This document shows positions 9,819 through 28,073 of a DNA stretch of 64,000 nucleotides, one piece after another. Source of the stretch: Sphingomonas sp. Leaf357 (GTDB lineage: Bacteria; Pseudomonadota; Alphaproteobacteria; Sphingomonadales; Sphingomonadaceae). Location of the stretch: assembly GCF_001423845.1 (NCBI RefSeq), contig NZ_LMPM01000001.1:2468153-2532152 (forward strand), written 5' to 3'. A model generated the notes under the pieces. It saw nothing but the letters and a program-made list of their open reading frames with translations. It did not search any database and was not told the origin of the DNA. A program made the position numbers and the translations under genes. Position 1 is the first letter of the stretch; each line of letters begins with the position of its first letter.

Positions 9819-9833
9819 GTTCCACTCTTGTTC
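9819..9833. promoter_or_regulatory. LexA (SOS) box upstream of recA
   Basis: GTTCCACTCTTGTTC is a perfect GTTC-N7-GTTC direct repeat, the alphaproteobacterial LexA operator. It ends 77 bases before the recA start. The box at 27025-27039 differs by one base. Confidence 0.92.
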
Positions 9834-25980: not shown

Positions 25981-26790
25981 ATGAGGCGGCCGTTACCCCG
26001 GGTCCGGCGCGGGCTTCCGTTGCGCGCCGTGGCGCCGAATGCCGTCACCGCCCTGGCTTTGTGCTGTGGGCTGACCGGGATTCGTTTCGGTATTTCCGGC
26101 GATTTCGAGATCGCGGTCACGATGATCATGCTGGCGGGCGTGCTCGATGGGCTCGACGGGCGGATCGCCCGGATGCTGCACGGCGAGAGTCGCTTCGGTG
26201 CGGAACTCGATTCGCTCGCCGACGCGATTTCATTTGGCGTGTCTCCGGCACTGATCCTGTATCTGTGGTCGCTGAAGGATCTGCCGCGTATCGGTTGGCT
26301 TTGCGCCCTCGTTCTGGCGGTATTCTGCGCACTGAGGCTCGCGAGATTCAATGCTCAGATCGATCTGGAGGAGCAGCCGCACAAATCGGCCGGCTTCCTC
26401 ACCGGGGTACCCGCCCCGGCTGGAGCTGCGCTGGCGATGCTACCATTGTTCTTCTGGGTCTGGACCGGCGAGCCGGTGTTTCGCTCGCCCTATCTCGTCG
26501 CGCCCTGGGTCGCTCTGATGGCGACATTGATGATATCGAGCGTTGCGACGTTTTCCTGGGGATCGCTCAAGTTGCGGCGTAATATCCGGTTCGAGGCACT
26601 GGCAGTGGTGGTCCTGCTCGGTGCCGCGGTCATCTCCGCGCCCTGGCACACCGTGTCCGCGTTATGCGTCGTTTATATTCTGTCGATTCCGTTCAGCATC
26701 GCCAGCTATGCGCGCATCAAGCGGCTGCGCGGTGCGCCGGCCGGGGTTGCGGTGCCAGGCGGACCCGCGGGGCAGGGCGTCGATCCCTGA
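25981..26790 (+). CDS. pssA: CDP-diacylglycerol--serine O-phosphatidyltransferase
   Basis: Makes phosphatidylserine from CDP-diacylglycerol and serine. 269 residues, multi-span. The CDP-alcohol phosphotransferase motif is complete: D59-G60-x2-A63-R64-x8-G73-x3-D77-x3-D81. ATG 25981 follows the psd stop by ten bases, so the genes are likely co-transcribed. The 3' end overlaps a convergent small gene on the minus strand by 74 bases. Confidence 0.95.
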   Translation: MRRPLPRVRRGLPLRAVAPNAVTALALCCGLTGIRFGISGDFEIAVTMIMLAGVLDGLDGRIARMLHGESRFGAELDSLADAISFGVSPALILYLWSLKDLPRIGWLCALVLAVFCALRLARFNAQIDLEEQPHKSAGFLTGVPAPAGAALAMLPLFFWVWTGEPVFRSPYLVAPWVALMATLMISSVATFSWGSLKLRRNIRFEALAVVVLLGAAVISAPWHTVSALCVVYILSIPFSIASYARIKRLRGAPAGVAVPGGPAGQGVDP

Positions 26791-26935
26791 GCACGAGTTG
26801 CGGCATCGTCGCGACATCTTTGCCCGAGAACAAGGCGATGATTCGCGGCATCGCCGGCGCGAGCGTATGACCGATTACCGTCAGCGATACTGCCAGTGCG
26901 ATTCCGAAAACCAAGAAAACCACGATCGTCATCAT
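26717..26935 (-). CDS. Small single-span membrane protein, probably LexA-controlled
   Basis: 72 residues: one N-terminal membrane span (about 3-26, TIVVFLVFGIALAVSLTVIG), an amphipathic linker (PRIIALFSGKDVATMPQ) and an Arg/Pro/Ala-rich tail that would be cytoplasmic or periplasmic. GGGAG is spaced eight bases before the tandem ATGs (26935/26932). A TTGACA element and a perfect LexA box (27025-27039) lie about 90 bases upstream in the right orientation. The coding region overlaps the end of pssA on the opposite strand by 74 bases, so part of the Arg/Pro-rich tail may be constrained by pssA. No family recognised. By analogy with the Caulobacter SOS-induced membrane peptide SidA, a division inhibitor role is conceivable but unproven. 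Confidence 0.68.
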   Translation of the reverse strand: MMTIVVFLVFGIALAVSLTVIGHTLAPAMPRIIALFSGKDVATMPQLVLRDRRPAPRVRLAPQPRPAHRAAA

Positions 26936-27019
26936 TGCCCAACTCCCTGCATGTGGGCCAGAGTTCGGAAACGCTAACACCTCATGGTGCATTCGGTTCC
27001 TTGTCCGCCTTACGGACCC

Positions 27020-27049
27020 CGTATGTTCCACTCCTGTTCCACATGTCAA
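27020..27049 (-). promoter_or_regulatory. Putative promoter of the small membrane protein gene
   Basis: Read on the minus strand: TTGACA (27049-27044), an 18-base spacer, then CATACG (27025-27020). The LexA box occupies most of the spacer, the ideal position for repression. The -35 is a consensus match; the -10 is weak, as is common in alphaproteobacteria. Confidence 0.5.
27025..27039. promoter_or_regulatory. LexA (SOS) box between pssA and rpsB
   Basis: GTTCCACTCCTGTTC, perfect GTTC-N7-GTTC, 14 of 15 bases identical to the recA box at 9819-9833. It is 144 bases before rpsB and 90 before the minus-strand small gene; only the latter has a fitting promoter around it. Confidence 0.88.
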
Positions 27050-27182
27050 CGCTTGATTTGCACCGGAAGGTCGTCTAGGGACCGCGCCTTCACACCGCAT
27101 GGGAAGCATACATAGCCGGTGTCCGGGGCTTCGCCCGATGGATCACTCGCTTCCCAGAGGAACAACCGGAAAGGAACTACCT

Positions 27183-28073
27183 ATGGCGGCACCTGTCGTC
27201 TCGATGCAGCAATTGCTCGAAACTGGCGCGCACTTCGGACACCAGACGCACCGCTGGAACCCGAAGATGAAGCCCTACATCTTTGGCGACCGTAACGGCG
27301 TCCACATCCTCGATCTGTCGCAGACCGTCCCGCTGTTCGCCCGCGCGCTCGAATTCGTCGCCGCCTCGACCGCCGCTGGCGGCAAGGTGCTGTTCGTCGG
27401 CACGAAGCGCCAGGCGCAGGATCCGGTTGCGGATGCCGCCCGTCGTTCGGGCCAGCACTTCGTCAACCATCGCTGGCTGGGCGGCATGCTCACCAACTGG
27501 AAGACGATCAGCAACTCGATCAAGCGCCTCAAGACGCTCGAAGAGCAGCTGTCCGGCGACACGCACGGCCTGACCAAGAAGGAAGTCCTGCAGCTGACGC
27601 GCGAGAAGGACAAGCTGGAGCTTTCGCTCGGCGGCATCCGCGACATGGGCGGAATTCCGGACGTGATGTTCGTGATCGACGCCAACAAGGAAGAGCTGGC
27701 GATCAAGGAAGCCAACACGCTGGGTATTCCGGTCGTTGCGATCCTCGATTCGAACGTCTCGCCCGACGGCATCGCTTTCCCGGTTCCGGCGAACGACGAC
27801 GCGAGCCGTGCTATCCGCCTGTATTGCGAAGCGATCGCCATCGCCGCGACGCGTGGCGGCCAGCAGGAGCAGGCCCGTCGCGTCGACGTGGGTTCGCTCG
27901 AGCAGCCCCCGGTCGAGGAAGCGCTGACGGTTGCCCCGGTCGAGGCTTCGCCTTCGGTTGCGGCCGATACGTCGGTGACCGAGGCGGATTTCGCCGCTGC
28001 CGATCCGGAAACCCCGGCGGCTTCGACCGAGCCGGAAACGGCGGTCGAAGGCGAGCGCCAGATCGACGCGTAA
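27183..28073 (+). CDS. rpsB: 30S ribosomal protein S2
   Basis: Small-subunit ribosomal protein, 296 residues. Canonical S2 core ([51 protein letters not shown]) to about residue 235, then an Ala/Glu/Pro-rich acidic C-terminal extension of about 60 residues ([16 protein letters not shown] and on) not present in E. coli S2. AAAGGA at 27170-27175 supports the ATG. A roughly 100-base leader precedes it with a GGGGCTTCGCCC hairpin. Followed by tsf, the usual pair, but with a palindromic repeat in between. Confidence 0.97.

Follow-up and report, generated by a model that had tools for sequence, protein, structure and literature searches.

A small membrane protein gene under a conserved LexA-type promoter in Sphingomonadaceae, a candidate SOS division checkpoint

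A minus-strand gene of 72 codons, located between pssA and rpsB in Sphingomonas sp. Leaf357, almost certainly encodes a real membrane protein under SOS control, as judged from sequence conservation. Its promoter, frame and span, and the selection acting on the frame and on its terminal -AA, are computed features. It is fairly probable that the product is an SOS-induced inner-membrane checkpoint protein, a reversible division brake of the SidA kind that carries a C-terminal proteolysis signal. More tentatively, and with slightly less than even confidence, Sphingomonadaceae may possess an SOS checkpoint protein of their own, present across the family and taking the part of SidA. It would be inverted in the membrane and evolve under hardly any sequence constraint while keeping its switch, its position, its span and an -AA proteolysis clock written into the pssA codons of the opposite strand.

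The locus, its promoter and its distribution

The window, meaning the whole stretch of 64,000 nucleotides that was analysed, holds the following features around the small gene.

26717..26935, minus strand: small open reading frame, 72 aa, single-span membrane protein (stop codon 26719-26717; supported by homologues and dN/dS)
25981..26790, plus strand: pssA (first ATG of the frame at 25981; start codon approximate)
27183..28073, plus strand: rpsB, the divergent neighbour (frame in the window)
26717..26790, both strands: tail-to-tail overlap of the small gene and pssA, 74 nt (from the end of the pssA frame)
26948-26943, minus strand: Shine-Dalgarno AGGGAG (from the sequence)
27039-27025, minus strand: LexA box GAACAGGAGTGGAAC, which is GTTCCACTCCTGTTC or GTTCN7GTTC on the plus strand (from pattern and conservation)
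27049-27044, minus strand: -35 element TTGACA (from the sequence; TTGAC conserved in homologues)
27020..27026, minus strand: probable -10 element overlapping the end of the box, with GAACATA conserved (from position counts over 136 promoters)
26861..26929, minus strand: membrane span, residues ~3-25, within a predicted helix 2-37 (AlphaFold2 pLDDT >90; composition of 142 homologues)
26720..26731, minus strand: C-terminal RAAA, a proposed proteolysis signal (conserved family end; role inferred)

The elements described in the initial annotation, namely the 72-aa frame, its tandem ATGs (26935 and 26932, minus strand), the Shine-Dalgarno, TTGACA and the box, are all present, and the 74-base overlap with pssA that it reported is borne out by a pssA frame ending at 26790. 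We take that frame to be phosphatidylserine synthase, from the label given in the initial annotation and from recognition. The promoter reads TTGACA-N4-GAACAGGAGTGGAACATA, which sets a candidate LexA operator between the -35 and -10 elements, and 89 nt separate the start codon from the near edge of the box. As had also been claimed, the box and GTTCCACTCTTGTTC at 9819-9833 differ at a single base; the frame downstream of the latter is presumably RecA.

Box counts within the window were rejected as a source of significance. GTTCN7GTTC occurs twice against 1.77 expected, so significance must rest on conservation. The same pattern has 113 sites in the organism's own genome versus 42 for the reversed pattern, and the longer pattern TTGACN1-7GAACN7GAAC has one site in the 3.87-Mb genome, at the small frame; its reversed control also has one.

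Protein similarity gathered 198 loci, many of them the same genomes reached twice, which reduce to 142 distinct proteins of 72-82 aa; L059-L146, spurious or gathered via rpsB, are excluded from the 198. The gene is antisense to rpsB in all 139 distinct loci that show rpsB, and pssA is a neighbour in 139 of the 142. Box counts refer to the 141 distinct homologues with at least 150 nt of upstream sequence. A perfect GAACN7GAAC stands within 300 nt upstream in 138/141, and in 136/141 the box follows TTGAC by 2-6 nt, compared with boxes in 5/2618 control windows of 300 nt drawn from both strands of the same loci. The three homologues lacking a perfect box are related loci in which GTAC replaces one GAAC, and two others keep the box and lack TTGAC. 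TTGAC, the box and an ATA directly behind it are common to the promoters, which places the operator between -35 and -10. The joint conservation of LexA box and span that the initial annotation proposed to check is found in the homologues. Its claim of LexA control over a membrane protein gene is backed by promoter (box and -35), frame, span and position, all conserved throughout the genus, and further by 27 of 30 genomes that the sequence profiles miss. Five promoters (L005, L007, L019, L023, L032) carry two perfect boxes 23 bp apart, an arrangement that suggests tighter or cooperative LexA control.

A protein search finds nine relatives besides the window protein; 9/61 genomes match, the organism's own included, all from the same genus, and in all nine the gene lies between pssA and rpsB, antisense to both, with the box upstream. 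A profile from a 13-row alignment matches 255/295 genomes of the genus (232/264 of good quality), while a 28-row profile matches 15/298 genomes of the family, in five genera, and 17/196 of the order. Three order-search matches (L059-L061) are spurious, having neither box nor pssA or rpsB alongside, and were dropped. A contig scan for the AERRIAVRR motif group yields 80 loci, 76 of them in records titled Sphingomonas, including S. melonis and S. paucimobilis. A Sphingomonas-type gene also stands on L151 and L179, contigs whose titles name Arthrobacter sp. TPD3018 and Microvirga sp. SRT01; these records are probably mislabelled. Among 5.8 billion proteins, 656 match the small protein at E <= 0.01; within the 120 matches listed, most are nameless and the named ones are 'hypothetical' or 'Uncharacterized protein', apart from one 'Glutaminase' label from one source.

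No similarity to any characterised family is detectable by sequence comparison. Pfam has no match to the window protein and NCBIfam only one below the cut-off, and Rfam gives no curated-level match around the small frame or in the rpsB leader. One of the 28 members of the larger alignment matches DUF1622 (E 0.003) and four of 28 weakly match an Rz-like spanin in PHROGs (best E 0.0002), matches that presumably reflect shared span composition. The best match among solved structures (E 0.008) is to a cytochrome construct.

Promoter, position and shape extend the family further. The rpsB loci of 30 profile-negative genomes were inspected, six from within the genus and 24 from elsewhere (one per genus), hand-picked from the listed negatives rather than random. 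Twenty-four of them have an antisense box no more than 1.5 kb upstream of rpsB and, behind it, a frame of ~70-96 aa whose single span is N-terminal. A normal TTGAC is missing at L069 and L090, and the complete frame of L088 was read as L291. Three genomes (G405, G321, G323) have the same promoter and the same kind of frame (84-106 aa) located elsewhere, which brings the positives to 27/30 genomes and 22/25 genera, and neither promoter nor frame was found in the remaining three (G368, G319, G358). The 27 proteins end in -AA in 26 cases and in -AV in one, and the ends played no part in the choice of these frames, which relied on span and promoter; their start codons are uncertain. In a random-anchor control under an identical frame criterion, a span-bearing frame ending in -AA or -VA arises in 0/4000 trials at outgroup loci and in 39/3332 at family loci, which leave the real gene within reach of an anchor. 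The kinship of the profile-negative genes is thus one of promoter, position and shape, not of sequence. Outside the GTDB family, the promoter is absent near rpsB at all 28 loci examined from other orders, of which L105 carries a lone box with neither -35 nor frame, and at all 22 from other families of Sphingomonadales, two with <1 kb of upstream sequence. Promoter, position and C-terminus therefore reveal the small gene even where a sequence profile fails.

The protein and its C-terminal end opposite pssA

Purifying selection acts on the small frame. In 223 close pairs the dN/dS ratio is ~0.16 overall, 0.16 in the first 40 codons and 0.20 in the last 30, computed from equal-length pairs of 75-99% identity with phylogeny ignored. 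Across 136 loci, median identity to the window counterpart is 37% for the small protein, 75% for PssA and 85% for RpsB. Such identity combined with such a dN/dS describes a protein that evolves fast and is nonetheless constrained.

AlphaFold2 predicts one helix, residues 2-37, for the window protein, with a low-confidence tail, and further helices at 45-64 and 69-76 for the AERRIAVRRWA group. The span is evenly hydrophobic, with a mean Eisenberg moment of 0.10 and a charged residue in 3/142 homologues. None of the 142 has a lysine or arginine before the span, each has at least four after it, and the median net charge of the tail is +6. Under the positive-inside rule, the bare N-terminus and cationic tail predict an N-out/C-in topology. 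No conserved enzyme motif is seen in the family alignments.

At the C-terminus, 130/142 distinct homologues end in -AA and 12/142 in -VA, while 8/141 open frames of the window (at least 200 codons, six frames) end in AA or VA. The 3' end overlaps the tail of pssA in 138/139 loci, by a median of 62 nt and in the same phase in 138/138, and the last codons face conserved residues of PssA, approximately [VI][KR]R[LQ]R. The -AA end might then be a by-product of PssA, an explanation rejected on two grounds. The first is codon choice. At the PssA arginine opposite residue -2, CGG or CGA gives Ala or Val in the small protein, and CGC or CGT gives Gly or Asp. CGC and CGT together occur there in 0/134 cases versus 58% in non-overlapped pssA (binomial ~1e-51, a naive value that ignores phylogeny and a local CGG lean beside the overlap). 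Among 114 clusters more than 10% apart, the codon is CGG in 98, CGA in 12, CAG in three and CCG in one. The nearest arginine position outside the overlap has CGC or CGT in 20/106, which is a local lean towards CGG rather than avoidance. The second ground is a set of five members (L049, L050, L057, L071, L287; four from one genus) that have no visible pssA opposite and keep the -AA end along with promoter and span; pssA absence was judged from frames by eye, and the first four also lack a tblastn match. Avoidance of CGC and CGT, together with -AA ends where pssA does not overlap, argues that the end itself is selected, and codon choice in the antisense pssA indicates selection on the -AA of the small protein. 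The locus offers a clear case in which selection on a protein C-terminus is read from the codons of an overlapping antisense gene.

What the end is selected for may be turnover, and a conserved -AA that acts as a proteolysis signal is the somewhat favoured explanation. The ClpX signal of Caulobacter CtrA is C-terminal. It appears in a review table as a sequence ending in -AA, labelled N-terminal there (PMC8138137), and the C-termini of SosA (PMC6851548) and YneA (PMC6051672) bear on turnover.

The initial annotation had further proposed that induction of the small gene might affect pssA mRNA. The overlap underlying this idea is conserved (138/139), and the idea is weakened by the five members that keep the gene without the overlap. 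A direct role of the overlap is accordingly not general in the family.

Proposed function and competing explanations

A division brake is the probable function, argued by analogy, and a checkpoint role like that of SidA fits the anatomy of the gene. In an undamaged cell, LexA bound to GAACN7GAAC between -35 and -10 would block transcription, as operator position and conservation imply. RecA-promoted cleavage of LexA after DNA damage is established for LexA in general, and at this locus it would free the promoter. The product would insert as one N-terminal helix, N-out/C-in, and would slow septum synthesis reversibly at the level of FtsW/FtsI/FtsN, like SidA. Its -AA end would expose it to ClpXP or FtsH or, should the topology be reversed, to a tail protease of the periplasm, and division would resume once LexA returns because the protein is short-lived. 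Induction, target and turnover are the parts of this scheme that we infer. SulA was considered as the local division inhibitor and rejected, the SulA domain (Pfam PF03846) being absent from all 41 genomes searched, the organism's own included, in a search whose control was positive in E. coli.

Caulobacter sidA adjoins dnaE. SidA of Caulobacter crescentus is a 29-aa, SOS-induced inner-membrane division inhibitor that acts on FtsW/FtsI/FtsN (PMC4211646), and a Caulobacter lexA mutant filaments through constitutive sidA expression (PMC12700426). The small gene is likewise alphaproteobacterial, with a GTTCN7GTTC-type LexA operator and one span in its product. Unlike SidA, the product has 72-82 aa and a cationic tail, and the gene is flanked by pssA and rpsB, not dnaE; the predicted topology differs as well.

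SidA-like genes occur elsewhere in the class. A class-wide scan for the promoter pattern matches 22/115 genomes, and in five of them (G762, G709, G769, G740, G790) the promoter precedes a single-span peptide of 29-47 aa directly upstream of dnaE. Regions upstream of dnaE add peptides at two of 13 usable loci, in G756 (no clear -35) and G703 (wider spacing); L337, L338, L346 and L349 have too little sequence and L324 and L325 lack dnaE. SidA-like loci were thus observed in seven alphaproteobacterial genomes outside the order (L299, L307/L322, L309, L312/L323, L320/L326, L347, L352), in an arrangement of peptide and dnaE that resembles Caulobacter sidA, and similar peptides stand behind the promoter with no dnaE seen at L300 and L308. 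In G709 dnaE is followed directly by rpsB, an order also seen in G740. The two genes are adjacent at 17/28 loci of other orders, 12/22 of other Sphingomonadales families and 0/32 of the organism's own family, and none of the 10 usable loci from other families of Sphingomonadales has such a peptide before dnaE.

A lysine or arginine precedes the span in each of the seven dnaE-linked peptides, which predicts a topology opposite to that of the small family, and none of them ends in -AA. The small family has no such residue before the span, ends in -AA or -VA and is longer. Given their shared promoter layout, the two sets of genes may be alternative solutions for one job, and the small family may fill the role of SidA with a differently built protein, whether or not the two share descent.

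Other SOS-induced division inhibitors offer further parallels. SosA of Staphylococcus aureus is a 77-aa, SOS-induced division inhibitor whose extracellular C-terminus is handled by CtpA (PMC6851548). SOS control, similar size and a single N-terminal span are shared, and the C-terminus of SosA governs its turnover, whereas the tail of the small protein is predicted to be cytoplasmic; the likeness is one of description, with no sequence relation claimed. YneA of Bacillus subtilis is LexA-controlled, has a single N-terminal span and is cleared by CtpA and YlbL during checkpoint recovery (PMC6051672). Apparent LexA control and the single span recur in the small family, but the extracellular part of YneA is larger. 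Membrane-bound SOS checkpoint proteins are described as having little in common beyond small size and the membrane (PMC6051672), for which reason homology searches miss them. By this analogy, the small gene is provisionally placed among the SOS-induced small membrane checkpoint proteins.

Another kind of DNA-damage effector in the membrane, for instance one that regulates lipid or envelope synthesis or that serves a protease as its membrane adaptor, would involve no direct block of division. SOS control and membrane location leave the target unspecified, and the gene usually overlaps pssA. This explanation is nevertheless unlikely, in view of the family alignments, which reveal no conserved enzyme motif, and of the best studied SOS small membrane proteins of this anatomy, which stop division (PMC4211646, PMC6051672, PMC6851548).

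A peptide that lowers membrane potential and so leads to dormancy or persistence, with no specific division block, would also account for an SOS operator, a single span and a cationic tail. Escherichia coli TisB, the model for such an activity, is LexA-controlled and amphipathic, with a long structured leader and an antisense RNA antitoxin. The small family shares with it a LexA-controlled short membrane protein and a long leader, with 75-181 nt between the end of the box and the start codon, but neither an amphipathic helix (mean Eisenberg moment 0.10; charged residue in 3/142 spans) nor a folding signal in the first 40 nt of the leader is seen. Those 40 nt have a mean z of -0.22 versus -0.18 in control segments, with no sign there of a tisB-like structure. 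Conserved end and purifying selection favour a specific protein instead, and the TisB-like explanation is a rather poor prospect.

It is very improbable that the antisense transcript is itself the product, acting only in cis to lower pssA mRNA, or rpsB by promoter competition. The tail-to-tail overlap in 138/139 loci would suit such action, as would an SOS -35 and a possible rpsB -35 (TTGATT) 3 nt apart in the window. A dN/dS of 0.16, a selected protein end, the retention of the gene in members without visible pssA overlap and the rarity of back-to-back -35 elements (20/171 family leaders) all speak against it. A chance box before a non-coding frame, compatible with a window box count that equals expectation, is ruled out for practical purposes by the conservation of both box (138/141 homologues versus 5/2618 control windows) and frame (dN/dS 0.16; matches in 255/295 genus genomes).

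The small gene would open the division checkpoint of sphingomonads to testing, and its hundreds of natural variants could help to map the minimal requirements of a division brake. A search of titles and abstracts, with most subscription journals and supplements outside it, found no paper on the small gene, and the literature so searched yielded no described division-checkpoint effector of sphingomonads. In Sphingopyxis granuli the SOS response includes induction of lexA, recA and imuAB-dnaE2, and the portion of that report consulted names no small membrane protein (PMC6472365).

The rpsB leader and the divergent promoters

At 27044-27058 of the window, the SOS -35 TTGACA (minus strand) stands back to back with TTGATT (plus strand), a possible rpsB -35 separated from it by 3 nt. 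Polymerases on the SOS and rpsB promoters might exclude each other. Present in 20/171 family leaders and 0/47 outgroup leaders, the arrangement was rejected as a general feature.

The rpsB leader itself (~27095-27175, plus strand) contains a strong stem that pairs TGGGAAGC with GCTTCCCA. In other genera both arms of this stem differ in sequence (TGGAAGGC, TGGAGAGC, TGGACGGC). Stems of at least 7 nt occur in 132/165 distinct family leaders versus 25/165 after shuffling. This is probably an S2 autoregulatory leader. CCGGT and ACCGG near the Shine-Dalgarno could form a pseudoknot, and the CCGGT...ACCGG pair is present in 150/165 distinct family leaders.
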